This document shows positions 11,771 to 49,018 of a DNA stretch of 59,655 bases, piece after piece. The position numbers and the translations under genes were made by a program. The DNA lies in the NCBI GenBank assembly GCA_913009655.1, contig CAJVWI010000014.1:1-59655 (forward strand). Reading direction: 5' to 3'. Position 1 is the stretch's first letter, and each line of letters opens with the position of its first letter. Source of the DNA: an uncultured Cryomorphaceae bacterium. Its GTDB lineage: Bacteria > Bacteroidota > Bacteroidia > Flavobacteriales > Schleiferiaceae. The notes beneath the pieces are model-generated. The model had not been told where the DNA came from, searched no databases, and worked only from the letters and a program-made list of their open reading frames with translations.

Positions 11771-11884
11771 AGTCATAAATGTAACATAGGATTATCTTTC
11801 ACTTGGGGCTAAATAATATTTAGTAGGCAGAATTTGCCACCAAACTAAACCTTGTTATTTTTTCTTTAATTGAATTTCACTCTC

Positions 11885-13567: not shown

Positions 13568-13901
13568 GCTAGTCGTATTTCTCAAGTCAGGTCTATGCCT
13601 TGTTAAAGGGTTTAAAAATTTTTGATTGCAACAAAAGTCTTAAAAATTTTGTTAACAGATAATATCAATGTCCAATTTTAATGTGAGCAAAAATGAATAA
13701 AGAAAAACAATCTCAATTCTAATTATATGAAGCTAATAATCAGTCAACTATTCTTATTTAGTGTAAAAAATACACTTAGGGTAGTTATCGAACTGTCCAA
13801 CGATTATAAAAGACCGTATCTCCTGTCCCTGTTGAAAAAAACCACAAATAGTTATATATACTTTAAGTGAAATTTGTATCTTGGCTTTAATTATTGTACT
13901 T
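13568..13901. other. Divergent intergenic region between CotH and SusC genes
   Basis: This 334-nt A+T-rich spacer separates the cotH-type and SusC genes. It holds the candidate operator at 13760-13776 and a TATCTTGG element at 13877-13884 (7 of 8 to TAnnTTTG), 17 nt before the SusC ATG. An AAAAATTTTTG-like tract occurs twice near 13616 and 13648. No ORF, tRNA or strong hairpin is seen. Confidence 0.5.
13760..13776. promoter_or_regulatory. Candidate operator upstream of the SusC operon
   Basis: AGTGTA-AAAAA-TACACT is a perfect 6-bp inverted repeat with a 5-bp A spacer. It lies about 126 nt before the SusC ATG and about 190 nt before the divergent CotH-type start. Its size suits a dimeric regulator. 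No hybrid two-component or SusR-type regulator is encoded in the window, so the protein that would bind is unknown. Confidence 0.4.
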
Positions 13902-32371: not shown

Positions 32372-33990
32372 AATATAACGCGGCCAGAAGAATCTCCTGT
32401 CCTTAATAGATCTGGAGCTATCGTTCCATTAGACACTGCTTGAAATCTACCTATCTGTTTTTTGAATTCAATTTTATGGCCTTTCTTTTTTAACTTCCGT
32501 AGTACCTTTTTCGTATACGAACCTTCTTCCAAGTATAGAACTTCAGGCCATGCTTGAGCATGTACTTTTTTGCTATTAACCGACTCTTGAAGAGTCTGAC
32601 CAAATCGGCAAAACCTTCTAATCACGTGAAAAACATTTGTGATTATAGTACTTCCACCTGGTGTTCCCAAAACAACTTTTTGATCTCCCTTGACCAAAAT
32701 TGTTGGTGTCATACTAGATAACATTCTTTTACTCGGCTCTATTGAATTCGCCTCAAAACCTATTAAACCAAATTGATTAGGGACACCTGGAGAAATAGAA
32801 AAATCATCCATTTCATTATTCATAAAAAATCCAGAGACCCATCTCTTACTCCCATATGAAGCATTTAATGTGGTGGTTATAGCCACAGAATTCCCATCCT
32901 TATCAAGGATACTAAAATGGGTCGTCTCTGAAGATTCCTCGCTAAGAGGAACTGCTAAATTTGGGCTCTTCCCTGCTCTCTTTGGATCAATATTTGCGAA
33001 CCTCTTATATAGATAAGAGGTGTCCAAAAGATCCGCTGTTGTCGTATTCATATAATCTGGATCACCTAGATGTCTTGCTCTATCTTCATATACAATTCTC
33101 GTGAGCTCAGTAAAGTCATGATATGAAGCAACACTCTCGAGCTCTTGCATCGTATTTAAATCTCTTTCAGAACCGCACAGCAACTGCAATAAAGCAACTC
33201 CTCCACTTGATGGTGGGGGCATAGTAATGACTTCCCAACCCATATACTCACCAATTAGTGGTTTCCGCCACCGAATTTGATAAGATGCCATATCTAACAT
33301 TGTGAAATAATTCTGTTCAACTAACTGTTTGGCAACCGGGCCGTAATAAAAATAGTTAGGGCCAATATCTCTAATACCTTTTAATGTTTCGGCTAATTCT
33401 GATTGAACAAGTCGCATTCCTTGCTCCCAAATAAACCCCTTACAAAAGGGACCACAGCCATTTGGATTTTGTGAAATAAAATCAGAAGAATTGTAGTTTA
33501 ATTCTTCTGATAATTTTTTCGTAACGAAAAAACCAGTGTCTGCCAACATTATTGCTGGAGTTAATAAGTCCGACCAGGATAGATTGCGAGACCCATAACG
33601 TATGTATAAATCCCACATTCCCTTAACACTACCCGGTACTCCTGAAGCTAATTTAGATGTTAAGCTGGAATTGTCATTCTCATATCTGATAAACATATCC
33701 TTTGAAGCAGCCAATGGTGCTATTTCTCTGAAATCTAAGGTTGCTGCTTCAGCATTTGAAGTATGAATTACTGCAAATCCCCCACCGCCAATATTCCCAG
33801 CTCGTGGAAGTACAACAGCAAGTGAAAAATGAGCTGCTACAGCCGCATCGTAGGCATTTCCTCCTTTTTTCAAAATAGACTCTACAACATCGACGGCGAG
33901 AGGATGAGCTGCAGCAACACTTGCGCTCTGAGCAAAAACGTTCCCAACAAATAGAAAACATAATGAAACTAAAATGATGATTCTATTCAT
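32365..33990 (-). CDS. ggt: Gamma-glutamyltransferase
   Basis: This periplasmic Ntn-hydrolase breaks gamma-glutamyl bonds (glutathione and similar). The 541-residue precursor has signal MNRIIILVSLCFLFVGN. The large-subunit start has ASVAAAHPLA, GGNAYDAAVAA and GNIGGGGF. The autocleavage site is ETTHFSILDKDGN, where the second Thr would become the nucleophile of the small subunit. VAITTTLN and MLSSMTPTIL follow, and the oxyanion loop is GTPGGSTII. All key motifs are intact. Its ATG overlaps the stop of the upstream secreted-protein gene (ATGA), so it is translated with it from the promoter at 36578-36624. Confidence 0.95.
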   Translation of the reverse strand: MNRIIILVSLCFLFVGNVFAQSASVAAAHPLAVDVVESILKKGGNAYDAAVAAHFSLAVVLPRAGNIGGGGFAVIHTSNAEAATLDFREIAPLAASKDMFIRYENDNSSLTSKLASGVPGSVKGMWDLYIRYGSRNLSWSDLLTPAIMLADTGFFVTKKLSEELNYNSSDFISQNPNGCGPFCKGFIWEQGMRLVQSELAETLKGIRDIGPNYFYYGPVAKQLVEQNYFTMLDMASYQIRWRKPLIGEYMGWEVITMPPPSSGGVALLQLLCGSERDLNTMQELESVASYHDFTELTRIVYEDRARHLGDPDYMNTTTADLLDTSYLYKRFANIDPKRAGKSPNLAVPLSEESSETTHFSILDKDGNSVAITTTLNASYGSKRWVSGFFMNNEMDDFSISPGVPNQFGLIGFEANSIEPSKRMLSSMTPTILVKGDQKVVLGTPGGSTIITNVFHVIRRFCRFGQTLQESVNSKKVHAQAWPEVLYLEEGSYTKKVLRKLKKKGHKIEFKKQIGRFQAVSNGTIAPDLLRTGDSSGRVIFY

Positions 33991-36572
33991 GGAAGGGCAG
34001 TTAATATCATTTGAAGGACTTTTGAAGAGCGACCTACAATTTCAGGATATATTAATCTAACAATATATACTCCTGTGACTCCATTAGATGGAGACCAGCA
34101 TTGCTCGGGAAGGGCACTATGCACGAGATTCCCCCAACGGTCATATACTTCATACCTAATGGCCTTGCCATAGCTAGAGTACAAACAAAATTCGTCATTT
34201 AAACCGTCATCATTTGGAGTAAATGCATTAGGAGCCCAAATAAAATCTTGACCTGTACAGAAATAGGGCAATGAAAGATCAATCGTATCTTGATTTCCGC
34301 AAAGGTCTATAACTGGAATTTTTGCAGAGTATACACCATCAAATGGAAATGATATTGTAGCGGAATCAACACTAATATTATTCCCCTCGATTGAATAAGG
34401 AATTAAGGAACTTATGTCTTTTAAAATTATAGTCACATCAGGACAATCATATATGAGCTCATATTTAGGGTTAGGGTTGATTTTAATTTCTACTGACTCA
34501 TAAGTGACACAATTGTCTGAATCATATATCTCTAAAACGTATACTCCTGGCTCTGGAACAGAATATTCCCATAGTCCGGTTAATACATTAAAATTTCCCG
34601 CACCACTATTTAATGGATCCGCACTTCGATAAAAAATACTATCAATTGGAAGAGCAATTCCGAGAGGAGGAGAAAATGAGATTACATAAATAGAATCACA
34701 ACTAAGAATTGTATCTGGCAAAACATCAGGAATTGAGTTTTTAGAAACTACCCAAACGGTGTCTACAAAAGAACATGAATCTGAGCTAGCATATAAAATC
34801 AACGGAGCTGACTGTCCATATTCTATGGTTTGAGTAGTCTCTCCAGTACTCCAGTTATATTGTTTCATACCGAAGGGAGCTGTTATTGTAGCCGGGCTTC
34901 CAGGGCATCCAAAAACTGTATCAGGTAGAAGGTCTGCACCTTCAGTATAAAACGGCATTCTCATTAAAACGGAATCAATCGAACCTGATGCATCTTTAGC
35001 AACAAGCTTAATCCATATATCACCAGAGAAACCTAATGCAGGATTGACATCAATTAAGGTGTCAAAAGGATTTGGGTCAGAAACTGTTGCCTGCCCACTC
35101 ACAATTTCTGTTTTAATAATCTGGACAGGAGGCAAACAGGTTTGTAATCCAAAAAATCCCTTTAAAGGTTTTGTGCAACGAACAGGGAAATTTAAAATAC
35201 TCGAACCCACATCTAAATAAGGATCAAGAATATCAAGTCCGGAGTCGAATCCAGAATAAAAACCGCAGAGACCTGTTGCTGTGCCCAAACCAGCAATGAC
35301 CTCTACATGAAATTGATTGCGACATGTCAAAGAAAAGGTATTAGTGACTGAAGCATCAGGAATATAAAAACTCGTGGTATTTTGAACCGTTATTAAAACA
35401 TGATTCTGACTCTTAAAATTATATGAGGAAATTGGAATTCCATTGTATTTCATTGATCCTACGTCGCTCGTTGGAACCAATACCAAAAGGTGAGTATTCA
35501 ACCCAGCCATTCTTGAAGCATAAACAGCTCTAGATCCAGTGCAATTGGCAGGAGGGACGAGTGACAACCCCAGTTCCGGAGCGGACTGATTAGAGCCTGT
35601 AGTTACATGAAAACAATAAACCGGCTTATCAGTCCAAATTTCAGTAATCTGCACTACAGATCCTGGCCCACCTGGCAATGTGTATTCAAAAACTTCAGAT
35701 TTGTTTTTAGTCGCTGATAGGACTCCGTTTGCCCAAATATTGGTATTGTTATCGGTAGGTATGATTACCAGATAATCAAGACTTGCTGGAGATAGTCCCC
35801 TAGCAACGACATATTCCTTACCTACCAGTTCTTCAGGGACCAATTGGTCGAATCCACCATCTTGCTCAGGGCCACCAAGATTCTGTTTCAAATGGTTCGC
35901 TCCGGTCGTTACGGAAATAGGTTTATTTGATATAATTGCAGCTCCAGCAAACTGCTCATCCTCATCCAGAGTTACAGTATAAGATTGCCATTTATTTAGA
36001 TTACAAGAAATAATATTATTTCCCAACTTGTCAGTAATACCTGGTGGTAGGTTTACCGTTACAACAGTATTGTTTTCAATAGCAACAAATGAGATAAAGC
36101 CCAGGGCCGCTTCACCTGCAGGAGGAGCATTGACAATTTTAGTTTGATTCCCCGCTAAAAAACTTAGCCCTAGCGCCCTTGTTCCTTTGGCAGAAATAAG
36201 ATCCTGATTATACTGTTGAACAACTCTCTGTGTAAGTACAATATCCCGATCGCTTCTTATAAAAAGAGCTGCTCTATCCACAACTTGATTTCCAAGCTGG
36301 GTAGAAATAGCTCCATAGGTACTTTGAAGTCCCTGAGCAGTACTGTTTAGATATACGGTCTGAGGAACCCCTTGAGCAAGAATGATATTTTTAAAATAAG
36401 AGCTGTCAGAATTGAAGATAACAACATCGGCATCTGGAAATGGAGTGCTTATTGTTAATTCCTGAATTTGATTTGACCACTCAGGAATTGGAGCTAAATA
36501 AAATGCAGTATCCAACTGTGCATAGATCACAGATGTACACATAAAAGCAAATAAAGTAAGCAAATAACGCAC
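33987..36572 (-). CDS. IgGFc-binding-like secreted protein with type-B T9SS (CHU_C) domain
   Basis: The 861-residue protein starts at GTG 36572, which opens signal MRYLLTLFAFMCTSVIYA. Residues about 40-290 have the pattern of the IgGFc-binding N-terminal family (VNLPPGI, ISVTTGANHLKQN, FDQLVPEELVGKEYVV). A long beta-rich region with Ig-like repeats follows, and VFGCPGSPATITAP and LSCDSIYVI introduce gliding-motility-type modules. The end is a type-B sorting domain (WAPNAFTPNDDGLNDEF, VYDRWGNLV, GVTGVYIVRL). It is probably secreted or surface-attached and may bind protein or glycan. The promoter and the first 11 codons are duplicated, in decayed form, at 48906-49006. It overlaps ggt by 4 nt. 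Confidence 0.78.
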   Translation of the reverse strand: MRYLLTLFAFMCTSVIYAQLDTAFYLAPIPEWSNQIQELTISTPFPDADVVIFNSDSSYFKNIILAQGVPQTVYLNSTAQGLQSTYGAISTQLGNQVVDRAALFIRSDRDIVLTQRVVQQYNQDLISAKGTRALGLSFLAGNQTKIVNAPPAGEAALGFISFVAIENNTVVTVNLPPGITDKLGNNIISCNLNKWQSYTVTLDEDEQFAGAAIISNKPISVTTGANHLKQNLGGPEQDGGFDQLVPEELVGKEYVVARGLSPASLDYLVIIPTDNNTNIWANGVLSATKNKSEVFEYTLPGGPGSVVQITEIWTDKPVYCFHVTTGSNQSAPELGLSLVPPANCTGSRAVYASRMAGLNTHLLVLVPTSDVGSMKYNGIPISSYNFKSQNHVLITVQNTTSFYIPDASVTNTFSLTCRNQFHVEVIAGLGTATGLCGFYSGFDSGLDILDPYLDVGSSILNFPVRCTKPLKGFFGLQTCLPPVQIIKTEIVSGQATVSDPNPFDTLIDVNPALGFSGDIWIKLVAKDASGSIDSVLMRMPFYTEGADLLPDTVFGCPGSPATITAPFGMKQYNWSTGETTQTIEYGQSAPLILYASSDSCSFVDTVWVVSKNSIPDVLPDTILSCDSIYVISFSPPLGIALPIDSIFYRSADPLNSGAGNFNVLTGLWEYSVPEPGVYVLEIYDSDNCVTYESVEIKINPNPKYELIYDCPDVTIILKDISSLIPYSIEGNNISVDSATISFPFDGVYSAKIPVIDLCGNQDTIDLSLPYFCTGQDFIWAPNAFTPNDDGLNDEFCLYSSYGKAIRYEVYDRWGNLVHSALPEQCWSPSNGVTGVYIVRLIYPEIVGRSSKVLQMILTALP

Positions 36573-36697
36573 TAGACTAAAGGTAAGGCGAACTAGAACT
36601 ATAAATTATGTAACATTTATCACATAAAACCCTGTTAGATTTCAGCAAATAAATTTACTCTTGAGCTTAATTTATCTAATTCTTTATTTTTAAAATC
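36542..36697 (-). repeat. Junction repeat, copy A (intact)
   Basis: On the minus strand this segment runs from the last 20 codons of the PLP decarboxylase, through the intergenic promoter, into codon 11 of the type-B T9SS gene. It aligns with 48848-49001 (plus strand). By hand count, 86 of 96 bases match without gaps from the decarboxylase stop onward, and about 50 of 60 columns match, with two one-base gaps, in the coding part before it. Confidence 0.9.
36578..36624 (-). promoter_or_regulatory. Promoter with Crp-like palindrome ahead of the type-B T9SS gene
   Basis: TGTGA-TAAATG-TTACA (36609-36624) matches the Crp pattern TGTGA-N6-TCACA at 9 of 10 positions. TACCTTTA (36578-36585) matches TAnnTTTG at 5 of 6 fixed positions and ends 5 nt before the GTG start. 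If the box is centred on -7, the palindrome is centred near -41.5, the classical class-II activator position. No -33 TTTG is present, as expected for an activated promoter. Confidence 0.5.
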
Positions 36698-37888
36698 AAC
36701 TCCAAAGAATGAAGGTATTGATCTAGAGCAATGCCTAGACCACAATCCATAACTATTCGAACCAGTACCAGTTAAAAGTAGTAAGTCACTTTCTTCTGCA
36801 ACAGGGAGTTCAATGTTCTTAGCTAAATAATCTCCTGCAAAACATAAAGGCCCAGCAATATCATGAACCACTTTTTTTGTTGTTTTAGGGTTAGCGTTTG
36901 AATCTAAGACCTTAAATGATATCCCCCTTGGTTTAACATATGCGTCTCTGAGGAGAAAATCAGCTCCAATATGAATGTAGGTGATATACTTGGTGCCTTT
37001 AAGTATTGAATATTCTATCTTAGAAATTGCATAACCAGTATAAAAGTAGTTCCATTGCCCAAATTCTGTAATCAACTCAAATTCCCATAATTCAGGACAT
37101 CTAAGTCTTAGACTAGAAGCATACTCTTGCATTTTTGAAGTTTGTCCGAGTATTAATTTTTCCGGAACAAGCCCCCCGCCTATATCAAGTGTTTGTATCC
37201 TTCGAGAAGATCCATCCGATTGCAATCGATGATTTGCTTCTAAAGCAATATCTCTGAGCAAGCAAATGGCATTTACGGCTGAGTCTAAATTTGCCATTTG
37301 ACTTCCTGAATGAATATGTAAAAGCGTCACTGGATATTTTATAATCGCATTAATTATTATATCTTTTTCAGAAATTGGTACTCCGAATTTAGATTCATCG
37401 TTGCTGACATCATAAACCTCTGGAGCTCCAGTTTCTACCTGAGGGTTGATCCGAATACCCACCTGAAAATTCGGGTTTTCAGGAATCCTATTTAACTCTT
37501 CAATACTATTTACATTTAGCCTTATACCCTTTACCTTTTCATGACAATATAATATTTCCTTTTTCGTCTTAACTGGAGAATCAAAAACAATTTTATCAGG
37601 AGAAACTCCAGCATTCAATGCCTTTTTAACTTCCTCCATAGAGGCAGCCTCTAGGCCGAGACCCCAATCAACAATTCTCTCTAAAACTTTCGGGTGTGGC
37701 TGGGTTTTTATCGCGACGGCATGCAACGCATTGGGGTGCGAAAAAGAATCAATCAAATGCTGGGTATACAATTTTAGTCGATCCCATGATTGAAATAGAA
37801 CGGAAGTGTCATCTTCATCAATGAGCCCCATTGAAACCGCATTACGCCATGACCATTTTGCCTCATCGATTATTGAACTATTATCCAT
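36635..37888 (-). CDS. Fold-type-III PLP decarboxylase (DapDC/OrnDC-like, divergent)
   Basis: The frame reaches up to 37933, but ATG 37888 lies one base after the upstream stop (TGA-A-ATG) and removes a 44-nt overlap, so it is preferred (417 aa). PLP Lys is K61 in AVAIKTQP, and LEAASMEEV follows. HIHSGSQ is the barrel strand that packs on PLP, DIGGGL binds phosphate, and DIAGPLCFAGD has the catalytic Cys C349. These fit meso-DAP/ornithine-type decarboxylases. The usual C-terminal G-A-Y-x-x-x-M/F segment is replaced by TGTGSNSYGLWS, so the substrate is probably not DAP. It is the third gene of a compact unit with a second PLP enzyme. Confidence 0.8.
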   Translation of the reverse strand: MDNSSIIDEAKWSWRNAVSMGLIDEDDTSVLFQSWDRLKLYTQHLIDSFSHPNALHAVAIKTQPHPKVLERIVDWGLGLEAASMEEVKKALNAGVSPDKIVFDSPVKTKKEILYCHEKVKGIRLNVNSIEELNRIPENPNFQVGIRINPQVETGAPEVYDVSNDESKFGVPISEKDIIINAIIKYPVTLLHIHSGSQMANLDSAVNAICLLRDIALEANHRLQSDGSSRRIQTLDIGGGLVPEKLILGQTSKMQEYASSLRLRCPELWEFELITEFGQWNYFYTGYAISKIEYSILKGTKYITYIHIGADFLLRDAYVKPRGISFKVLDSNANPKTTKKVVHDIAGPLCFAGDYLAKNIELPVAEESDLLLLTGTGSNSYGLWSRHCSRSIPSFFGVDFKNKELDKLSSRVNLFAEI

Positions 37889-37889
37889 T

Positions 37890-39296
37890 TCAGCTTGCAA
37901 AAATTTTTGTGACATGCTCCTCAATAATCTCAATGAGTCTTATATCATTCCTAGTATCAAATTTCTTATTTTCCATTTGTTTTCTAATCGAATAAGAACC
38001 AATTGCAAGGCGAATGAACGACTTCTCTCCATACTGAACTGGCTGCCCAATGAAAGCACGATCAAAATCAACTAAACCTTCATGCTTATTTAGTATGAGC
38101 TCGTTGAATAATTTTTTCAACTCCTCGCTGACAAGAGCCCTTCCATTTACTAAAACCATAAATGAAACAATACTGTCGTTGGTTAATTCGATATCGGGCA
38201 TCAAGCGAAATGTATCACTCATCGCCAATCTTCCTATGATTACCTGACTCCACCTTCGGATTAAAGCATTTGTTTCGCTCGAGTCAAAGGACATGTATTC
38301 TTCCATTTCTCTCAAGGCAATTTCCCATCTCATGCGAAGACCCTGATTTTTAAAATCTTTTAGATGCATCCGAATATTCGGCATTGCCAAAGGAATATCA
38401 GAGGAGCAAAATAATTGTGATAACCCAGAAGCAGCATCTGCAGGAAGGTCCTTCATTAAATTTGACCAAACCTTAGGAACAAGCAAAGCACCACAAAATG
38501 GAGGTGCCTGATAAAATTTTGAACCTGTAACCATTACCATGACACCCTTATTTATTAGGTTATGTATCAATTTACGGTCTGTACGAAACTGGCACATATC
38601 AACTACCCACATGACCCCATCAGTAAATTCATCAATAATATCAAGGTCATCTTTAATTCCTGACTTACTGCCAAAAACAAGATTACCAATAATTGGTCGA
38701 TTAGGATATTGATTTATCAATTCTCGAATTGCTTTTTTTCTATCAAGTACAGAACCATCAATTGCTCTAGCTGGCAAAAAATGAACATCAGATTCAATAA
38801 GCTCAGAAACTTTTTCTGCAATTGGAATACGTTCTCCAAACTGATTCCACTCAGAATAATATTCGCCCTTTGCTGCTGATTTAGAACCTGACCCAAGCTC
38901 TTCAGGGCAAGAAACAATATTAATAATTGAATTATCCGGGTTGAGTATTGCTTGAAAAAGCAATGGTAAGTACATCAAATCACTGCCACTAGGACCATAA
39001 TAAACATGAAATTGGTCTTCATCACTTTCCCGAAGTAGCGCCTGTAATCTTTTGGTTTGTCCCTTTAAAATTTCTGGATAATCTGATTTCTTATAAGATA
39101 AAGCAAATTCTTTTGCTACCTCTTGACCAAAAGGTGTCAGTGTACCACATGTGCATGAACCTCGATGAAACAGACCAGAAAAATTAATTGGGTTTAGATG
39201 ATATTTATTTGCTTGAGTTTCTTCACGTAGAAAAATGCGTTCATCGCAACCAGATGTTAATATTTTTAGTAGTTCTTCTTCAGAAAATTCTGACAT
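37890..39296 (-). CDS. Unassigned fold-type-I PLP enzyme
   Basis: The 468-residue protein has a fold-type-I PLP layout. YYGPSGSDLMYLP recalls the phosphate-binding loop, VVDMCQFRTD holds the Asp (D233) that pairs with the PLP nitrogen, and MVTGSKFYQAPPFCGALL holds the likely Schiff-base lysine K260. The surroundings (D-x-C-Q, G-S-K-F, P-P-F-x-G-A-L) do not fit any aminotransferase, desulfurase or decarboxylase subgroup I can name. PNIRMHLKDFKNQGLRMRW is another distinctive stretch. The N-terminus has a C-T-C-G motif (about 48-51). It lies 8 nt after the papain-like gene and 1 nt before the decarboxylase, so all three are one operon. Confidence 0.7.
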   Translation of the reverse strand: MSEFSEEELLKILTSGCDERIFLREETQANKYHLNPINFSGLFHRGSCTCGTLTPFGQEVAKEFALSYKKSDYPEILKGQTKRLQALLRESDEDQFHVYYGPSGSDLMYLPLLFQAILNPDNSIINIVSCPEELGSGSKSAAKGEYYSEWNQFGERIPIAEKVSELIESDVHFLPARAIDGSVLDRKKAIRELINQYPNRPIIGNLVFGSKSGIKDDLDIIDEFTDGVMWVVDMCQFRTDRKLIHNLINKGVMVMVTGSKFYQAPPFCGALLVPKVWSNLMKDLPADAASGLSQLFCSSDIPLAMPNIRMHLKDFKNQGLRMRWEIALREMEEYMSFDSSETNALIRRWSQVIIGRLAMSDTFRLMPDIELTNDSIVSFMVLVNGRALVSEELKKLFNELILNKHEGLVDFDRAFIGQPVQYGEKSFIRLAIGSYSIRKQMENKKFDTRNDIRLIEIIEEHVTKIFAS

Positions 39297-39304
39297 AAGT
39301 TAAA

Positions 39305-40351
39305 TTATTTGTTTAAACGTAAGCACCGTAATTGCTTACCTGATAATTTAGAACGCAAGGTAATCCATGCAAAATGGGTATCATGAACCAACTCACACTG
39401 GTCATTTGCAAACTCCAAAACCCATGATTTTAAAACCTTATAATCAGCACTGAATTCTAAAACTCCCGCAGCAGAATATCTTTTCATTTGAACGATTTCT
39501 TCATCAACTATTTCCAAAAAATGCCAGGCACCCTCTCCTATTCCACCAATATATGTAGCATTATCAGCAACAGATGAAGGTCTTGGTTTAGGAGGGTATA
39601 ATTGTCCTGCTTTTTTATCAGAAGGTAATTTTGTCGCTTTACTCTTTCTAAATGCATGTGTTAGATTACCAAGGATCTGCGTTAACCCGTGCAGTTTTGG
39701 GCGGTTATGAAAAGTTGCTACACCATTAAGAAAAATACAATACCCCTCGCCAGATGCGCCCGTTAATACATTTGAATACGGGGTCGGAGCAATTATTGTC
39801 GCTGGAAATCTAAATTTCATAAACTCTTTCGAATTTGATGGAAGACCTGCCATCATCGCGCGGGTGACGAAACGGGCACAATTGGTGCATTTTCTGTCTA
39901 TGCCATTGTAACCTGTGAATCCAAGATCTTGAATAGAATAGGCATAATCTAAAACTTTATTTACATCGGCTTCATAGTAAACACTTGCGTATATAGAGCC
40001 TTCACCATGAGTAGCTTCGGCATTATTTTCAAGTTCCTTTAAAATTTCGACAAAATTTATAAGCTCCCCGTTATCACCCCACTTAGGTAAAGTGCTCAAT
40101 TTTAATTTCGGATCTGTTCGAGAACTTCGGGCCCTGCCCATGGTTTTTGGTGTTATGTATCTCCCAAAATCAAAATATTCTAGATTATCATGCTCAACGA
40201 TAATCATTCCAGCATGACCAACAAGGAGATTTATATTTTTTATTATGCCTAATTTTCTGAGATGATCCCATATTTTCTCAGAACCCCTGGCGGTCATTTC
40301 TGGCCAGCCAATTGGAATTATGGCGCCCGCTTTTTCTATAGGGTTAGACAT
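39305..40351 (-). CDS. Putative permuted papain-like (NlpC/P60 or LRAT-type) protein, DUF6695-like
   Basis: ATG 40351 gives 348 residues, and an ATG at 40366 lies upstream of or inside the promoter box. Near the N-terminus LLVGHAGMIIVEH places a candidate catalytic His (H46) in a strand, followed by YFDFGRYI and GRARSSRTDP. The candidate Cys follows much later in DRKCTNCARFV (C155/C158). The order His then Cys is that of circularly permuted NlpC/P60-like enzymes, which act as amidases, peptidases or acyltransferases. I recall similar G-H-A and D-F-G-R-Y motifs from the DUF6695 family, but this is from memory. There is no signal peptide. It is the first gene of a three-gene unit with two PLP enzymes. 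Confidence 0.6.
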   Translation of the reverse strand: MSNPIEKAGAIIPIGWPEMTARGSEKIWDHLRKLGIIKNINLLVGHAGMIIVEHDNLEYFDFGRYITPKTMGRARSSRTDPKLKLSTLPKWGDNGELINFVEILKELENNAEATHGEGSIYASVYYEADVNKVLDYAYSIQDLGFTGYNGIDRKCTNCARFVTRAMMAGLPSNSKEFMKFRFPATIIAPTPYSNVLTGASGEGYCIFLNGVATFHNRPKLHGLTQILGNLTHAFRKSKATKLPSDKKAGQLYPPKPRPSSVADNATYIGGIGEGAWHFLEIVDEEIVQMKRYSAAGVLEFSADYKVLKSWVLEFANDQCELVHDTHFAWITLRSKLSGKQLRCLRLNK

Positions 40352-40355
40352 TTGG

Positions 40356-40386
40356 CAAAGATGCATTGAAACATATTACTATCAAA
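40356..40386 (-). promoter_or_regulatory. Promoter of the three-gene PLP operon
   Basis: On the minus strand, TTTG (40383-40386), a 19-nt spacer and CATCTTTG (40356-40363, one mismatch to TAnnTTTG) are followed by CCAA and the ATG at 40351. Both boxes and the spacing fit the Bacteroidota housekeeping promoter, and the transcript would be leaderless. Confidence 0.6.
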
Positions 40387-40568
40387 AGGAATAATTTTCT
40401 TTTTCATTATTTTTACGATTCTCAATCCCTGCAGAAACCTTCACTTATAATATAAAATCAATACCAAAAACTCGTCAAAAAAAGGTTTATCAAAATCTAA
40501 TGCTTGGATTTATACCTTTGACAAAGAATTATTTTATTACTCCAATAAGTTTATTTCAAGAAAAAAAT

Positions 40569-42074
40569 ATGAACAAAGCCTCTCATATCCACCAGATTTA
40601 TACCGGATGCCTTTCTCAAGGTTCTTATTTTATCCACAGCGATGGTGAAGCGATAGTAATAGATCCTCTCAGGGAATCTGAACCATATATTGAAAAGGCT
40701 AAATCTCTCGGTGTTAAAATTAAATATGTCTTAGAGACTCACTTTCATGCTGATTTTGTGTCTGGTCATGTCTCATTAGCGGAGAAAACAGGAGCAACCA
40801 TTATTTATGGACCTGGAGCAAAAACTGAATTTAAAGTCCATATTGCAGAGGATAATGAAGAAATAAAATTTGGGAATCTCCGTATGCGTGTTCTTCATAC
40901 TCCTGGCCACACTCTGGAGTCCACATGTTACTTGTTAATTTCTAAAGAAGGAAAGGAAGAAGCTATATTCTCTGGAGACACATTGTTTTTAGGAGATGTA
41001 GGAAGGCCAGACCTTGCTCAGAAATCGGGAACAATAACCCAAGACGAACTGGCAGGAATGCTATTTGACTCTCTAAGAGAAAAAATAATGGTACTACCTT
41101 CCGATTTAATAATTTATCCTGGCCATGGTGCAGGCTCTGCATGTGGCAAAAACCTTAGTAAGGAAACGGTAGGGACTCTAAAAGATCAGCTTGAAAACAA
41201 TTATGCCTTGAGAATTGACATGAGCCGTGAAGAGTTCATAAGTGAGGTGACAGATGGCTTATTGCCTCCCCCAGCTTATTTTCCGTTGAATGTCGCGATG
41301 AATAAAAAGGTTATTCCTCAATTAGAGGATATTTTTAAAAATGCTGATAAATCTTTTGAACCAATAGCATTTGAAGCAATGGCCAATGAAATGAATGCTC
41401 TTGTTCTAGATACAAGAAAACCTCAGGAATATGCAGCAGGACATATCCCAAGATCTGTAAATATTGGACTAGATGGTCAGTTTGCCCCATGGGCAGGTGT
41501 TCTGATTCCTGATATTGATCAAAAAATTCTCATCGTAACTGAAGAAGGTCGAGAAGAAGAAACTATCAGGAGACTATCGCGAGTTGGATATGACAATGTT
41601 TTAGGCTTTTTAGAAGGAGGTTACAATTCCTGGAAACAGTCAAAAAAAGAGACTGACACAGTTGAAAGCATTGATGCTGAGGAATTTGCAAATCGCATAT
41701 CTAAAAATCCAAAAGCTGTGATTTTAGATGTAAGAAAAGATGGCGAATACAGATCCGAGAGAATGATGTCTTCAAATCACATTCCATTGGATGATCTAAA
41801 TACTCGCTTCAATGATTTACCAAAAGGAGATCCTATTTATATTCATTGTGCCGGAGGATATCGTTCCATGATTTTTAGCTCTATTCTAAAAAAGCGAGGA
41901 ATTCATAACATTGTAGACATACAAGGTGGATTTGGTGCTATAAAAAAAACCGAAGGTCTTGAAACTACTGATTATATATGCCCAAATACCAATGTGCCCA
42001 AAAACCCTGAAGATTCAAGTATCAAGGGGCAATCCACATTGCGCTCGTTCCTGAAAAGACTCCTAGGCCGTTAG
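40569..42074 (+). CDS. CstB-like persulfide dioxygenase / rhodanese fusion
   Basis: ATG 40569 gives about 501 residues. In-frame codons back to 40500 do not look like a signal. The metallo-beta-lactamase domain has THFHADFVSGH (H58, H60, D62), LHTPGHTLES, FSGDTLFLGDVGRPDL and IYPGHGAGSACG, as in non-heme-iron persulfide dioxygenases. Two rhodanese domains follow. In the first, the active-site loop reads VTEEGREE with Thr (about 324) in place of Cys, so it is inactive. The second has IHCAGGYRS with C427. This order (dioxygenase, dead rhodanese, active rhodanese) is that of CstB, which oxidises low-molecular-weight persulfides to thiosulfate. It overlaps the DUF4249 gene tail-to-tail by 53 nt. 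Confidence 0.88.
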   Translation: MNKASHIHQIYTGCLSQGSYFIHSDGEAIVIDPLRESEPYIEKAKSLGVKIKYVLETHFHADFVSGHVSLAEKTGATIIYGPGAKTEFKVHIAEDNEEIKFGNLRMRVLHTPGHTLESTCYLLISKEGKEEAIFSGDTLFLGDVGRPDLAQKSGTITQDELAGMLFDSLREKIMVLPSDLIIYPGHGAGSACGKNLSKETVGTLKDQLENNYALRIDMSREEFISEVTDGLLPPPAYFPLNVAMNKKVIPQLEDIFKNADKSFEPIAFEAMANEMNALVLDTRKPQEYAAGHIPRSVNIGLDGQFAPWAGVLIPDIDQKILIVTEEGREEETIRRLSRVGYDNVLGFLEGGYNSWKQSKKETDTVESIDAEEFANRISKNPKAVILDVRKDGEYRSERMMSSNHIPLDDLNTRFNDLPKGDPIYIHCAGGYRSMIFSSILKKRGIHNIVDIQGGFGAIKKTEGLETTDYICPNTNVPKNPEDSSIKGQSTLRSFLKRLLGR

Positions 42075-42930
42075 TTATATTAGAATAAACTGTAACAGGC
42101 TGAGTAAAGGGATTTCTTGAGTCCTGGTATAAATCAAAAGAGGAAAGATAATTGTAATATCCATTATCCATCTTTACGATTTTAAATACCTTCTGCATAG
42201 AAAAAGGAACAGGATTATCCCTTCTTTCCGAGACTCTTATATCAAATGTTCGTTTTTCTCCGAGAAAAAGATTATTCGAAACGTATAATCTGTTTTTTAT
42301 TCTCACAAAAGAGGGATCATCTGATTCTATCTCCATCATATCCTTCGGTACAGAAATAGAATCGACTGGCCTTTGGTAAGCTTCAATCATATAATAGCCT
42401 GGCTCACCATCATCATCAATTTCAAGATCAAAAGAAATAGAAGGCTTGTCTCCACCAGGACCTCCGCCACTTCCTAGACTGGTATCTCCTGGAATTACAG
42501 TTATATCCATTGGTAAATTAGGAACAGTTGAAGTAGCAAAAATTTCATCCAACCCAGTTTCTTTTCCAAACAAATTATATGTATGCCCAGTTATTACTTT
42601 CATGTTAGGAGCTCTATATCTCCCTCCTCCACCAAGAGAAACCAAAGTATCAACCTCTGAAGTATTGTTATCCACAACCCATAGAGTAGCTGCATCTAAA
42701 AAAATAGGATTTGAATTATCTAAGATTCCAACACTTCGAGAAACAACGGCATCAATTGGATCTGCATCTACAATATTCGTCATCACTCCAAAGCCAACGC
42801 CATATCCAGTTGCAGAGGCAAGGGAATAAACAGTCATCTTGGGATCTGTATCTTCTGGTGAAAATGGGATTATTCGCTCACAGGAGATAAAAGCAAGGGT
42901 TATAAAGTAGATATATATGTATTTTTTCAT
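42022..42930 (-). CDS. DUF4249 outer-membrane lipoprotein
   Basis: The 302-residue lipoprotein has a signal ending AFISC (Cys17). It shows the DUF4249 pattern: an early strand MTVYSLAS, DAVVSRS, DAATLWVVDNN, RAPNMKVITGHTYNL, the EPGYYMIEAY strand and a C-terminal NGLGVFSG. Family members are nearly always encoded beside a TonB-dependent receptor with a carboxypeptidase-like N-terminal domain and probably form its surface partner. That receptor is 5 nt upstream here. Its last 53 nt overlap the end of the CstB-like gene on the other strand, an unusually long convergent overlap. Confidence 0.85.
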   Translation of the reverse strand: MKKYIYIYFITLAFISCERIIPFSPEDTDPKMTVYSLASATGYGVGFGVMTNIVDADPIDAVVSRSVGILDNSNPIFLDAATLWVVDNNTSEVDTLVSLGGGGRYRAPNMKVITGHTYNLFGKETGLDEIFATSTVPNLPMDITVIPGDTSLGSGGGPGGDKPSISFDLEIDDDGEPGYYMIEAYQRPVDSISVPKDMMEIESDDPSFVRIKNRLYVSNNLFLGEKRTFDIRVSERRDNPVPFSMQKVFKIVKMDNGYYNYLSSFDLYQDSRNPFTQPVTVYSNITNGLGVFSGTSAMWIAP

Positions 42931-42935
42931 TTTTT

Positions 42936-45323
42936 TTAAAATTTAAAACTATATGATATTGATGGAATTATAGGAAATAATCCATATCCTTTTAAGACCG
43001 TATTACCATTATTGTCGGATCCAAAATCCATAAAGAAGGTATTTATGCGATTATAAGCATTATAAACCCCAAATTGCCAACTTACATCTCCCCATTTTTT
43101 CTGTCGGTGATAGGTCATTCCTAAATCCAACCGGTGATATGCTGGTTCTCTGAAATTATTCCTCCCTGATGTTTGCTCAATAACGTTGTTAAAAAAACTA
43201 TTAATATCTGTAAAACCATAATATTTTCTTGTAGCTATTGAAGTTGCTTTTCCTGTTCCATATATCCATACCAATCCACCACTCCATCGGTCGTTAAACT
43301 CATGAGATACAGTCAAAGAAATGTCATGCCTTCGGTCATAAGTGTAAGGATAGGGATCTCCATTATTTATGTCCGTAAATTGACGATCACTCTTGGCCAA
43401 TGTATACCCTAACCAACCTGTTGTTTTGCCTGTTTTCTTTTCTACTAAAAATTCTAAACCATAGGCCCACCCTCTTCCTGTAGTAACCTTTTGCTGCCAA
43501 TCTTCAGCTGAGGTAAGAAACGAAGAGCCTTCTTTATATTCGATTAAGTTTTGCATATCCTTATAATAACCCTCTAGGGTAAGCTCCCAACCCTTTCCAA
43601 GGTTGTGGGCATAACCAATAGCTGTTTGCCACGCTTCCTGAGGTTTAATATTCTGGGTGACGGGCACCCATAAATCTGTGGGCAAACCAATAGACTGATT
43701 AGAAAGCAGGTGCATGTATTGGACCATTTGTACATAACTCCATTTTATCGAATTATTCTTACCAAGCATATACCTAGCAGAAAATCTCGGCTGTAAACTT
43801 TGATAATCTACTCCAGTTTCAGAGTCTGAGCTTAAAACGCTAAAACCATTAAAATGAATTCCAGCATTCACCTTCAACCGATCTGTCAGCTCCCAATCAT
43901 CTTGTAGATAAAAAACATAATCCAATGCATCTTGAGGGAATGAGCCAAAAGTAGTATCCAGACTCTGACTTCCCGATGATATAGCAATTGAACTAACTCC
44001 AGGCTTGTATGCATGTCTTGTTAATGAAGCGCCGTATTTTATGGCATGATTCGGATCTGGTGCATAATCAAAATCCCATCTCACACCTCTATCTTCAATC
44101 TCTGAGAGATAGTCAATACCAAAACCATTGGTCTCAGACACTAAAGTAGCGAGATCGGTTTGAGTCTCGGAACTATTGATAACAGTATTGAACTTATATC
44201 GACTATACGTTGTTGTGATATTCGAAAACAGCTTGGGAGATATAATCCAATTCCAACGCAATGTGGCAATTCTATTTCCCCAATTTAATGAGTTATTCAG
44301 TTCTTCTAGTCTTCGAATCCCGACTTCTTCATAATTATTTTTTTGACGCAAATAGGCCTCATCAAATCCATCGTAAAAGCTTAAATAGAGTTGATTATTA
44401 CGATTAATCTTATGATTAATCTTGGCATTTAAATCGTAAAAGTAATATCCTCCAGCTGACCCATCTGGACTATTTTGCGCAATCAAGGGTTGAGCTAAAA
44501 CATCCAAGTAAGTTCTTCTTCCTGAGAGCAATACTGAGGTTTTGTCTTTCCATAAAGGGCCTTCCAAAGTGAGCTTACTCGAAATTAAACCCACAGATCC
44601 ACTACCATGCCATTCCTTCATATTTCCTTCTTTTAAACGCACATCTAGGACAGAAGAAAGTCTGCCACCATATTCAGCAGGAAATCCTCCTTTAATAAGT
44701 TGAACATTATTTATGGCATCTGTATTAAAGACAGAAAAGAAACCAAACAAATGAGAAACATTATAGACTGGGACTCCGTCAATGAGTATTAAATTTTGAT
44801 CAGGCCCTCCTCCACGAACATAAAATCCCGAAGTGCCTTCTGTTCCACTCTGAACCCCTGGGAGTAATTGTATTACTTTTAAAAGATCTGTCTCTCCCAA
44901 TAAGACAGGTAAGTTTTTTAAAGTTTTCATATTTAGACTTACCGAAGACATCTGCGTCGTTTCTTGAATATCGCTTACTCCAACTACGGTGACCTCATCG
45001 AGAATATTATCAGAAGATGTTAATTCAATATCTAATTCTGTGACAATTTTTCTATTTAAATCAATAGCATTAACCGAAGGCCTGTACCCAATATACTGCA
45101 CTTCAATCGCTGCAGTATCTCGACCTAAGGTCATCGAATAAAATCCATAAGAATTAGTGGTGACACCTTTTTTGCTCACCTGATCAAACACATAAGCATT
45201 GATCAATTTTTCTCCTGTATCAAAGTCCTTTACAAATCCATTTATTGTATAACTACCCCTATTTTGTCCAAACAGAGTTGAGGAAATAATAGTAAGGGTG
45301 ACTAGCAATATTAGTCTACGCAT
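42936..45323 (-). CDS. TonB-dependent receptor (DUF4249-associated)
   Basis: The 795-residue receptor has signal MRRLILLVTLTIISSTLFG, then a carboxypeptidase-D-like domain (YTINGFVKDFDTGEKLINA, YGFYSMTL, YIGYRPS). The plug has FYVRGGGPDQNLILIDGVPVY, LIKGGFPAEYGGRLSSV and VLDVRLKEGN. The barrel ends in an aromatic C-terminal strand (SISYSFKF). Receptors of this subgroup (GGGPDQNLIL, GG-F-P-A-E-Y-G-G) work with DUF4249 lipoproteins. Siderophore, peptide or metal uptake has been proposed, but the substrate here is unknown. Confidence 0.93.
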   Translation of the reverse strand: MRRLILLVTLTIISSTLFGQNRGSYTINGFVKDFDTGEKLINAYVFDQVSKKGVTTNSYGFYSMTLGRDTAAIEVQYIGYRPSVNAIDLNRKIVTELDIELTSSDNILDEVTVVGVSDIQETTQMSSVSLNMKTLKNLPVLLGETDLLKVIQLLPGVQSGTEGTSGFYVRGGGPDQNLILIDGVPVYNVSHLFGFFSVFNTDAINNVQLIKGGFPAEYGGRLSSVLDVRLKEGNMKEWHGSGSVGLISSKLTLEGPLWKDKTSVLLSGRRTYLDVLAQPLIAQNSPDGSAGGYYFYDLNAKINHKINRNNQLYLSFYDGFDEAYLRQKNNYEEVGIRRLEELNNSLNWGNRIATLRWNWIISPKLFSNITTTYSRYKFNTVINSSETQTDLATLVSETNGFGIDYLSEIEDRGVRWDFDYAPDPNHAIKYGASLTRHAYKPGVSSIAISSGSQSLDTTFGSFPQDALDYVFYLQDDWELTDRLKVNAGIHFNGFSVLSSDSETGVDYQSLQPRFSARYMLGKNNSIKWSYVQMVQYMHLLSNQSIGLPTDLWVPVTQNIKPQEAWQTAIGYAHNLGKGWELTLEGYYKDMQNLIEYKEGSSFLTSAEDWQQKVTTGRGWAYGLEFLVEKKTGKTTGWLGYTLAKSDRQFTDINNGDPYPYTYDRRHDISLTVSHEFNDRWSGGLVWIYGTGKATSIATRKYYGFTDINSFFNNVIEQTSGRNNFREPAYHRLDLGMTYHRQKKWGDVSWQFGVYNAYNRINTFFMDFGSDNNGNTVLKGYGLFPIIPSISYSFKF

Positions 45324-45533
45324 GACTTAAAGTATTTGTGCAAACAAAAAAACTATCCAATAATAATGCCAGTAAATACAGGCATCATAAAAATATACAA
45401 GAATCTATTTCATGATAATGGGTTAAACTTGAACATTTTCAAAACCTGATTTCTTTGCTCCGATAATTGATGTTTTACGATAAAAGACTATAATCTCATA
45501 CCTTTAAAAGACCTAAACAAATTAAGAATTAAG

Positions 45534-47960
45534 ATGAATCGAATCTACTTAAACCTTATTCTTCTCATTTTCAGCACTTCAGTCTTTTCTCAGACTCTTA
45601 CTCAAACCGTAAGAGGTACTGTTGTCGATGCTGACTCAAAATTCCCATTAATGGGTTCTCTAGTTAGTATTGGTTCGAAAGAAGTATCTACTAAAAACGA
45701 TGGTTCTTTCAAAATAAACAACGTTCCAATAGGTAGAAATTCAATATCCATATCTCTCTTTGGATATAAAAAACAAACTCGATCATTAGAGCTTAATTCG
45801 GCTAAAGAAGCAGTTCTAACAATTTCCTTAATAGAATCTGCAACACAACTTGGTACCGTAGATGTGATAGCTGTGCAATCAGGGCAGGCAAAAAATGAGA
45901 TGGCGACAGTTTCATCTAGGCAATTTTCTGTTGAAGAAACAAATCTCTATGCTGGAAGTCGAGGAGAGCCAGCAAGAATGGCAACAAACTTTGCAGGAGT
46001 TCAAGGGTCAGACGACCAGAGAAATGATCTTGTCATAAGAGGCAATACCCCAGCTGGTGTATTATATCGAATGGACGGAATTAATATCCCGAACCCAAAT
46101 CACTTTAGTATTCCTGGGACTGGAGGCGGTCCAGTAACTATTTTGAACAATAAGTTTCTTGCCAATTCTGATTTCTTTACTGGTGCTTGGCCTGCAGAGT
46201 ATGGCAATGCCATAGCTGGAGTATTTGACTTAGAAATGAGGGATGGTAATAACGAGAAATTTGAGGGAAGTGCTCAATTGGGCCTTCTGGGAACAGAGCT
46301 AATGCTTGAAGGGCCACTTGGGAAAAAGAAAGGTCGTCTGGCTCCATCATTTTTAGGAGTTTATCGCTACAGTACCCTATCTCTTTTTGAATCACTAAAT
46401 ATTCCGCTTGGAACAAATGCACTACCACAATATCAAGATGGCGCATTTAGGCTCACTTTTCCTCAGGAAAATGGAGGTAAGCTTGCACTTTGGACAATGT
46501 TCGGACAGAGTAACATAGATATTTTAATAAGCGATCAAATAGATACAAGCGGATTTGAAAGTTATGGGGATGCAGATCGTGATTCTTATTTTGGAAGTGA
46601 TATGATAGTTGGAGGATTAAGTTATTCTAAACCTATCAATAAGAGATCATTTATTAAAGCTGGAATCGGAGCATCTCACTCTCAAGTAAGAGCTGTGAAT
46701 ACCAAATTAGGTAGGAATGTAACAGAGCAGCCAGATGGATCTTTTGGATGGAATATTCTCTCCAATGATACTATGCTAAACTATACATTCACAGAAAACA
46801 AACTTCATGCTTACATAGCTTTTAACCAAAAAATAGGATCTCGAGGAACCATTCAATATGGTGTAAATGCTGATGTCTATTTTTTGAATTATCAAGACTC
46901 CATTCGCGATTTTGATGGCTTAACTAGCACTTTGCCTCCTTGGAGGGTTCAATGGGCATCTCAAGCCTCTTGGCCTGTCATTCAGCCGTATATATCATAT
47001 AAATCCAGGCTTACAGAAAAAACAACATTCACAGCGGGAGCAACTTCTCTTTATTCAGGAGTTAATAATGAATCTTTTATGCCTCTCGCCCCTCGTCTCG
47101 GCCTAAGCTATCAAGCAAATGATAACGATCGATTCTTTGCTGGAACGGGATTGCATGCACAAGGCCAAGCGCCATACCTATATTATTATGCCTTAACTAC
47201 AGTGAACCATGATCCACAAGAGCATAATACAGACAGAATTGGCTTAATGAAGAGTCTGCAATTTGCTGGAGGATGGGAACGTAATTTTTCAGGATCACCC
47301 ATTAGAACCAAGATAGAGGCATACTACCAATATCTTTATGATATTCCTGTAGAAGTTCGGCCGAGTAGTTTTTCTATGCTTAATACTGGATCAGGATTTG
47401 GTAGGATTTGGCCTGACACTCTTGAAAACTCAGGAACTGCAAGAAATTATGGTGTTGAATTAACCGCAGAAAGATTTTTCTCCAAAGGTTTTTATTTTCT
47501 TACCACAACAAGTCTCTTTGATGCAAAATATCGAGGTTCCGATGGCATCCAAAGAAACACTGTATTCAATGGTAGGTATGCTATCAATATACTTGGAGCC
47601 AAGGAATTCAAACTTGGTGCCAATAACCGATTCACATTAGGAAGTAAATTCACAACTGTTGGTGGTCGATGGTTTGGGGAAGAAGTGGATAAAACGGAAT
47701 CGATAAGAACAGGTGAAATTGTTTTTGTAGATGCTACAAATAACTTTAAGCAATATCGACCATATGTTCGGTTAGATTTAAAACTGGGATATAAATGGAA
47801 CCACCCAAAAACAGCGTGGGAATTTGGCCTAGATATTTCTAATATTACCGGACACAAGAATATCCTTACGCTTACCTATGTAGACGGCCTCCCTAATCCT
47901 GAGAGGGAAGAGTACCAACTAGGATTGTTTCCAGTATTTTACTTAAGATGTGATTTCTAA
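45534..47960 (+). CDS. TonB-dependent receptor
   Basis: The 808-residue receptor has signal MNRIYLNLILLIFSTSVFSQ, a carboxypeptidase-D-like domain (VRGTVVDADSKFPLMGS, KNDGSFKINNVPIG), and a plug with LVIRGNTPAGVLYRMDGINI and FFTGAWPAEYGNAIAGVFDL. The barrel ends LFPVFYLRCDF. It is transcribed divergently from the preceding receptor and has no SusD or DUF4249 partner beside it. A TACCTTTA box (7 of 8) lies about 27 nt upstream of the ATG. The substrate is unknown. Confidence 0.92.
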   Translation: MNRIYLNLILLIFSTSVFSQTLTQTVRGTVVDADSKFPLMGSLVSIGSKEVSTKNDGSFKINNVPIGRNSISISLFGYKKQTRSLELNSAKEAVLTISLIESATQLGTVDVIAVQSGQAKNEMATVSSRQFSVEETNLYAGSRGEPARMATNFAGVQGSDDQRNDLVIRGNTPAGVLYRMDGINIPNPNHFSIPGTGGGPVTILNNKFLANSDFFTGAWPAEYGNAIAGVFDLEMRDGNNEKFEGSAQLGLLGTELMLEGPLGKKKGRLAPSFLGVYRYSTLSLFESLNIPLGTNALPQYQDGAFRLTFPQENGGKLALWTMFGQSNIDILISDQIDTSGFESYGDADRDSYFGSDMIVGGLSYSKPINKRSFIKAGIGASHSQVRAVNTKLGRNVTEQPDGSFGWNILSNDTMLNYTFTENKLHAYIAFNQKIGSRGTIQYGVNADVYFLNYQDSIRDFDGLTSTLPPWRVQWASQASWPVIQPYISYKSRLTEKTTFTAGATSLYSGVNNESFMPLAPRLGLSYQANDNDRFFAGTGLHAQGQAPYLYYYALTTVNHDPQEHNTDRIGLMKSLQFAGGWERNFSGSPIRTKIEAYYQYLYDIPVEVRPSSFSMLNTGSGFGRIWPDTLENSGTARNYGVELTAERFFSKGFYFLTTTSLFDAKYRGSDGIQRNTVFNGRYAINILGAKEFKLGANNRFTLGSKFTTVGGRWFGEEVDKTESIRTGEIVFVDATNNFKQYRPYVRLDLKLGYKWNHPKTAWEFGLDISNITGHKNILTLTYVDGLPNPEREEYQLGLFPVFYLRCDF

Positions 47961-47981
47961 AAGAAGAGATAAGCATAACTG

Positions 47982-48012
47982 AACCGCATCTCTACAGATG
48001 TGGTTTTTTTTT
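47982..48012 (+). terminator. Rho-independent terminator after TonB receptor
   Basis: AACCGCATCT pairs with AGATGTGGTT (one G-T) around CTAC, followed by T8-9. It lies in the gap between the convergent receptor and SDR genes. Confidence 0.88.
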
Positions 48013-48022
48013 TGCAAAAAGG

Positions 48023-48811
48023 CTATGCTTCGGCGGTGTTTTTTGAATTCTGAATGTAATTGAGAATACGTAATTGTAGAAATCTTGGGACCAATAGAGG
48101 GGAGATCGTAAAAATATAATTAATAATCCCAGGCACTACTCTTCTCTTCCCATTAAGGGCACCTTCAATTCCCTTTAAAGCAACCTCATATGAACTCATA
48201 TGAGGAATTAATGGTCCATTCATCAATGGTGATTTTTTCAATCCTGCTCGTTCAAAAAATTTGGATTTTGTGGGGCCCGGACACAACGTGGTTACCGTGA
48301 CCTTAGTTTTTCTTAGTTCATGGTTAAGTGCTTCCGAAAAGGAGAGAACAAACGCTTTACTCGCATAGTAAGCGGCTAAGTGAGGACCTGGGAAAAAAGC
48401 AGCAATAGAAGCAACATTCAATATTTTACCGCTTCCTCTTTTTACCATTCTTTTTGCAAACTCTGCGGAAAAATGCAACAGTATTTCCACGTTGAGCTTT
48501 ATCATATTCTCCAACTCTCCTTTTTCAGATTTCACAACTTCTTTCCAAACCCCGTAACCAGCATTGTTAATCATTAAATCAATAGGAGTCGTATTTACCC
48601 ATGACCAGAAATCTTCTAATCCTTTTTCTTCAGAAAGGTCTGCAGAGAGCGCTTTGCATGAAGGGAATTCTTTTTTTAATCCTTCAATAGCTTCAAAGTT
48701 TCGGCCTGTTAACCACAGTGAATAACCTTTTAAATGGAGAATCTTTGCCATCTCATATCCTATACCTGAAGTAGCACCAGTAATTAATGCTGTCTTTGAT
48801 TTACTTTCCAT
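48023..48811 (-). CDS. Short-chain dehydrogenase/reductase
   Basis: This classical SDR has 262 residues. The cofactor loop is TGATSGIGYEMAK (TGxxxGIG), the structural motif MINNAGYG (NNAG), and the catalytic YYASKAF (Y-x-x-x-K) follows VASIAAFFPG with the Ser. CPGPTKSKF is the substrate-loop start, and the basic residue in TGRNF suggests NADP(H). The C-terminal hydrophobic, proline-rich tail is of the DltE/SDR type found in lipid-related reductases. The substrate is unknown. Its start abuts the pseudogene remnant at 48831. Confidence 0.92.
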   Translation of the reverse strand: MESKSKTALITGATSGIGYEMAKILHLKGYSLWLTGRNFEAIEGLKKEFPSCKALSADLSEEKGLEDFWSWVNTTPIDLMINNAGYGVWKEVVKSEKGELENMIKLNVEILLHFSAEFAKRMVKRGSGKILNVASIAAFFPGPHLAAYYASKAFVLSFSEALNHELRKTKVTVTTLCPGPTKSKFFERAGLKKSPLMNGPLIPHMSSYEVALKGIEGALNGKRRVVPGIINYIFTISPLLVPRFLQLRILNYIQNSKNTAEA

Positions 48812-48830
48812 CTAAGATTTGAACAACAAG

Positions 48831-48908
48831 CCATCTATCTTTGTTTAGATTTTGAAAACAAGAATTAGATAAAGTAACCTCAAGAATATATTTATTAGCT
48901 GAAAATAA
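48831..48908 (+). pseudogene. Remnant of a PLP-decarboxylase 3' end
   Basis: Read along the alignment to the intact decarboxylase, this stretch gives DFENKELDKVTSRIYLLAE against DFKNKELDKLSSRVNLFAE, with weaker similarity before it (PSIF against PSFF). A one-base deletion after DFEN breaks the frame, and the region preceding GATTTT has lost bases. No full gene remains upstream because the SDR start follows at once. The amino-acid-level substitutions suggest the parent was a diverged paralog or an older copy. Confidence 0.75.
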
Positions 48909-49001
48909 CAGGGTTTTATGCAATAAATGTCACATAATTTGCAGTTCTAGTTCGCCTTAACTTTAGTCTAGTAAGTTATCTGCTTACTTTATTTGCCTTT
49001 A
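48848..49001 (+). repeat. Junction repeat, copy B (decayed)
   Basis: This is the partner of 36542-36697 in inverse orientation. It holds a broken decarboxylase tail, the intergenic promoter (TAACAGGGTTTTATG start, 86 of 96 bases identical) and a broken signal-peptide start. The two copies face away from each other and bound a 12.2-kb block. Confidence 0.9.
48919..48965 (+). promoter_or_regulatory. Promoter with Crp-like palindrome ahead of the DUF5916 gene
   Basis: TGCAA-TAAATG-TCACA (48919-48934) matches TGTGA-N6-TCACA at 8 of 10 positions with a perfect right half. TAACTTTA (48958-48965) keeps the five matching fixed bases of the -7 box seen in copy A, the one change in it falling at an 'n' position. 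Spacing between site and box is identical to copy A. A transcript from it would have roughly 45 nt of leader before TTG 49019. Confidence 0.45.
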
Positions 49002-49006
49002 CATAG
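48971..49006 (+). pseudogene. Remnant of a type-B T9SS gene start
   Basis: Aligned to the intact gene, the start codon GTG has become GTA and the codons read (V)SYLLTLFAFT followed by TAG at 49004-49006, against (M)RYLLTLFAFM in the intact signal peptide. It cannot be translated as a protein start now. Everything beyond codon 11 has been lost or replaced by the DUF5916 gene. Confidence 0.7.
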
Positions 49007-49018
49007 AATTAATTGATA

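Follow-up and report, generated by a model that had tools for sequence, protein, structure and literature searches.

Putatively mobile promoters and the propagation of promoters in prokaryotes are reportedly the subject of Matus-Garcia et al. 2012 and van Passel et al. 2014, and Oren et al. 2014 are said to have dealt with noncoding DNA transfer and regulatory rewiring in bacteria, between strains. The locus described here resembles the former in that a short upstream sequence stands before two unrelated genes of one genome, but differs in having two copies only, one of them a native junction with coding ends, and in that its promoter activity is putative. With the latter it shares the pattern of regulatory DNA replaced or added in front of an unchanged gene; here, however, the change lies within one genome. 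The two works on mobile promoters are cited in PMC8049555. MITEs are likewise short and partly noncoding and may carry promoters, whereas the present case has no inverted repeat at its exact ends, no clear target duplication and no family of copies. Homology-facilitated or double illegitimate recombination, which has been studied in Acinetobacter baylyi, would also place a short piece at a site of low homology; it often replaces target bases, in contrast to this locus, where none was lost. Finally, microhomology template switching of the MMBIR type has in common with this locus a short inverted copy of a distant locus, the absence of target loss and a possible A+T-rich homology at one seam, but here the other seam is no more similar than expected by chance. 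The papers found on microhomology template switching concern human genomes and Triticeae, not bacteria.

The window (the whole stretch analysed, 59,655 nucleotides) is a contig of a 1.72-Mb draft genome that is about 90% complete, and the insertion is known from the assembled sequence alone. Two intergenic regions 12 kb apart are involved. At the first, a PLP-dependent decarboxylase gene (36635-37933, minus strand; Orn_Arg_deC_N and Orn_DAP_Arg_deC) is followed by a gene for a secreted protein (33987-36572, minus strand; IgGFc_binding and a CHU_C type IX secretion signal). The latter protein is large, and its listed ORF starts with GTG. On the other side, the ORF listed for the decarboxylase is overlapped by that of a 468-residue protein (37890-39296) for which Pfam gives no match at E 0.001. 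At the second region, a short-chain dehydrogenase (SDR) gene (48023-48811, minus strand) lies to the left and a DUF5916 gene (49013-51205, plus strand, with a TTG start at 49013 or 49019) to the right. The closest named records of the DUF5916 protein come from Cryomorphaceae, Flavobacteriales and Owenweeksia sp. TMED14 bins, and the organism itself is presumably related to them and marine.

A sequence-only reading had proposed that the decarboxylase/secreted-protein junction is duplicated 12 kb away, 36542-36697 of the minus strand aligning with 48848-49001 of the plus strand. This duplication is borne out, with coordinates exact to the base and with hand counts (86/96 from the decarboxylase stop onward, 50/60 before it) that were equally exact. 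The two copies, which are inverted relative to each other, are identical in 136 of 156 columns. Self-comparison of the window by blastn returns them as 36542-36697 vs 49001-48848 (87.2% over 156, E 6e-47), the strongest repeat by a wide margin, the next best being 39 bp long with E 1e-4. Their local alignment score of 209 is well beyond the maximum of 34 reached by 500 mononucleotide shuffles, so that the similarity is not that of shuffled DNA. A 17-base exact inverted match between the decarboxylase gene (36721-36737) and the DUF5916 gene (49347-49363) lies outside this repeat, has an E of 0.86 and is probably due to chance.

Copy A, the source segment (36542-36682, minus strand), consists of the last codons of the decarboxylase, which donated the tail, the intergenic sequence, and the opening codons of the gene for the secreted protein (IgGFc-binding/CHU_C), which donated the signal-peptide start. 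Copy B is a 142-bp insertion on the plus strand, absent from relatives, whose boundary is ambiguous by one base (48862-49003 or 48861-49002); 125 of its 142 columns equal copy A. The first 14 aligned bases (48848-48861) are native target sequence that is also present in relatives. One of the two alignment gaps sits at the left seam, and the second, of one base, lies inside the insert, adjoining the decarboxylase stop. The earlier description of the decarboxylase tail in copy B as frameshifted is partly a seam effect, since the first 14 bases of the alignment are target DNA. The signal peptide was correctly described as having lost its start codon, the GTG of the secreted protein being GTA in copy B, and as being followed by an in-frame TAG.

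Both places were compared with genomes of the same genus, of which G011 and G015 are the closest (about 84% identical here) and G013 and G016 are more distant (about 73-76%, aligned as blastn pieces). All four are collinear with our genome around both places and over the 12 kb between them. In each of these four, the relatives with alignable flanks, the SDR and DUF5916 genes are separated by an unbroken stretch that lacks copy B. Base 21201 of G011 belongs to both flanks of copy B, and in G015 the flanks stop one base apart, at 45087 and 45089. Between the starts of the SDR and DUF5916 genes, the gap measures 59 bp in G011 and G015 and 201 bp here; in G013 and G016 it is likewise short and uninterrupted. 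Compared with G011 and G015, no target bases were lost at the insertion. The junction of copy A is in its native place in all four relatives: the whole 501-bp query matches G011 and G015, and in G013 and G016 the decarboxylase side only, the remainder being aligned separately. The gap of a fifth genome, G009, is too divergent for presence or absence of the insert to be judged. Of the 16 other genus members, six (G002, G003, G005, G006, G012 and G020) were searched with the site DNA as query and gave no match at E 0.01; the insert sequence itself was searched in all 22 genus members and turned up solely as A and B in our genome and as A in G011 and G015.

Because the site is empty and uninterrupted in relatives, copy B is a short insertion rather than the remnant of a deletion. 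The sequence-only reading had held that the whole decarboxylase/secreted-protein locus was once present twice and that deletion reduced one of the two to its promoter, and copy B does keep parts of both genes in the right order. It had looked to blastn against relatives for a strain with two complete loci; what the relatives have instead is an empty site, in four of four. The proposal would need a large insertion followed by a large deletion that spared the target flanks, both in this lineage alone, at a site that is unbroken in near (two) and more distant (two) relatives alike, within 12 kb of collinear DNA. When set against the two closest relatives, copy B adds 142 bp cleanly to a gap of 59 bp, and there is therefore no sign of a former second complete locus at this place; among the best 15 matches of the self-comparison, the 17-base one (E 0.86) is the sole additional match to the decarboxylase or secreted-protein gene beside copy B. 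We reject duplication and loss of the full locus, which is highly improbable given the empty sites. An inversion scar, in which staggered breaks leave inverted duplicates at both ends, would account for two inverted copies flanking 12 kb, but relatives without copy B are collinear over this stretch, and neither side of junction A is disrupted. Collinearity thus rejects this explanation, to which we attach practically no weight.

We conclude, with a probability of roughly 0.92, that copy B arose by a short templated insertion, in which 142 bp of the native junction were copied in inverted orientation into a 59-bp gap 12 kb away, after the split from the nearest sequenced relatives and with the target left intact. 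Copy B is the only insertion of at least 12 bp relative to both G011 and G015 in about 19 kb, the sole insertion of at least 15 bp relative to G011 in about 32 kb and the largest of three of at least 15 bp relative to G015 in about 49 kb. Elsewhere in the window, a 55-bp stretch (11790-11844) is absent from G015 and has no second match in its own genome at E 0.01, and a 34-bp insertion lies at 13655-13688. Near 23524-23679, G015 has an extra stretch that matches nothing else in its own genome and only 31 bases in G011.

The substitutions in the 156 columns bear on the history of the copy. At 26 columns A and B agree with each other against an identical base in G011 and G015, at 14 B alone differs and at 4 A alone differs, with 5 differences between G011 and G015, gaps in two columns and 105 invariant columns. 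The 26 shared sites imply that A and B have a common history after the split from G011 and G015; the alignments show that the copy was gained in this lineage. Two of the 14 differences specific to B fall in native target sequence and 12 inside the insert. The faster drift of B compared with A (12 vs 4) is a trend only (binomial p 0.077). As judged from these columns, copy B has drifted since its insertion, with loss of the start codon (GTG to GTA).

In our own genome, nothing but A and B matches with E below 0.05, and in 88 family genomes searched at E 1e-4 we find only A and B here and copy A in G011 and G015. Neither search thus gave further copies or a second new site, and an element recurring before many unrelated genes, the outcome that would have spoken against a gene remnant, was not what these searches returned. 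The same short upstream sequence precedes just two unrelated genes, those of the secreted protein and of DUF5916. A dispersed element was rejected on these counts. A phage or plasmid origin was rejected too, no phage or plasmid match being obtained at E 1e-5.

These observations bear on whether a MITE-like miniature element or a repeated mobile promoter jumped from A to B. The copied piece is short and partly noncoding and has a promoter-like box and, 7-11 bases inward from its ends, an imperfect inverted repeat (10/11 in A, 9/9 in B). In tests chosen after looking at the sequence, this subterminal repeat was equalled by 85/5000 (A) and 77/5000 (B) random segments, a single set matched to the ends of A serving for both, and the 9-base repeat of B by 3/1000 shuffles. 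In copy B the perfect 9-base repeat occupies 48869-48877 and 48984-48992. Against such an element stand its two copies in the genome, one of them native, with none further in the 88 family genomes. Copy A, moreover, is ordinary coding and intergenic sequence that aligns over its full length in G011 and G015, where its inverted repeat is missing. The exact ends carry no inverted repeat and there is no clear target duplication: by eye it amounts to at most about 3 bp (ACA) and is ambiguous, and of the 7-bp AGAATTA found at both seams the left one belongs to copy A. Copy number and ends therefore disfavour a transposon, and we regard a jump of this kind as very unlikely.

The likeliest mechanism of the templated insertion would be one that acts at short homology. 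After the split from the nearest sequenced relatives, the decarboxylase/secreted-protein junction (copy A) would have served as template, and 142 bp would have entered the SDR/DUF5916 gap in inverted orientation, with the target bases all kept, when a polymerase switched templates or a short strand was captured at a brief A+T-rich homology at the left seam. The native target-site sequence at 48848-48861 (plus strand) resembles the decarboxylase tail (GATTTT.AAAA..) and may, with the right flank (AGAATTA), have provided microhomology at the left seam. Here source and empty target share a 22-column match (GATTTT.AAAA.AA-AGAATTA) that, in a test also chosen after looking at the sequence, was equalled by 41/5000 AT-matched stretches. 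At the right seam homology is at chance, 2471/5000 random stretches scoring as well. When 141 bases are left out instead of 142, 77/2000 score as well at the left and 1001/2000 at the right. The left seam lends modest support to a microhomology insertion. Because the right seam is at chance and neither G011 nor G015 shows the left-seam match at its empty site (2544/5000), we infer the mechanism rather than read it from the seams.

The subterminal inverted repeat leaves room for another route than a template switch. A free single strand delimited by an imperfect hairpin stem of its own might have been copied as a unit, giving DUF5916 a second working promoter; this we think distinctly unlikely, but it would, if true, be a one-step promoter transplant without a transposase, caught between close relatives. 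Folding of the two copies revealed no strong RNA structure (z -1.34 for B and -0.26 for A). A known RNA family was rejected, as Rfam gathering scores give only four tRNAs in the window.

According to PMC9723704, the flavobacterial −7 consensus is TAnnTTTG, the usual leader length has a median of 24, and almost leaderless mRNAs are uncommon (5.5% of mRNAs examined). Upstream of the insertion, a putative native −7 box of DUF5916, TATCTTTG (48836-48843, plus strand), is identical here and in G011, G015, G013 and G016. It fits the consensus, and its distance from the TTG start, 169 nt here, is 27 nt in G011 and G015, where the site is empty, a spacing that fits the usual leader lengths. Within copy B, a TAnnTTTG-like box, TAACTTTA (48958-48965, plus strand), lies 47 nt upstream of the TTG start (49013) and is a candidate transplanted promoter, although an imperfect match. 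Its counterpart in copy A, TACCTTTA (36578-36585, minus strand), lies 5 nt before the GTG start and is kept in G011 and G015. Use of this box would make the mRNA of the secreted-protein gene almost leaderless; alternatively, the gene at A may be read through from the decarboxylase, as part of an operon without a promoter of its own. Neither promoters nor terminators of the E. coli sigma-70 type were predicted in 48700-49200, where shuffles average 2.0 and 0.2.

It is conceivable, though doubtful, that copy B is an active transplanted promoter that drives DUF5916 and has been kept by selection. In favour of such a capture, TAACTTTA faces the gene as its counterpart does in A and resembles the consensus of PMC9723704, and the insert holds two TAnnTTT[GA] boxes, a number that about 5% of AT-matched stretches reach. 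Yet the box is an imperfect match in A as well as in B, and A may lie inside an operon and lack a promoter. A strict TAnnTTTG occurs within 100 nt upstream of only 4/42 listed ORFs of the window, which makes box matching a poor promoter guide here. Drift in copy B is similar in the tail (4/44 ungapped columns), the intergenic part (4/65) and the signal-peptide part (4/31), so that the promoter part alone shows no sign of preservation. Since the native TATCTTTG box survives upstream, the insert can have brought no more than an additional promoter. The effect of the insertion is most likely modest, the stretch from native box to start having grown by 142 nt with a second, weak promoter-like box nearer the start.

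This lineage-specific, short inverted paste-in between genes is ordinary in kind and cleanly resolved. It illustrates how a gene-junction 'fossil' can be misread as a lost locus when the empty site of relatives is missing from the comparison. It is also a polarised example of how a short and apparently non-mobile stretch of DNA with a possible promoter came to lie before an unrelated gene in a small marine genome (1.7 Mb draft).
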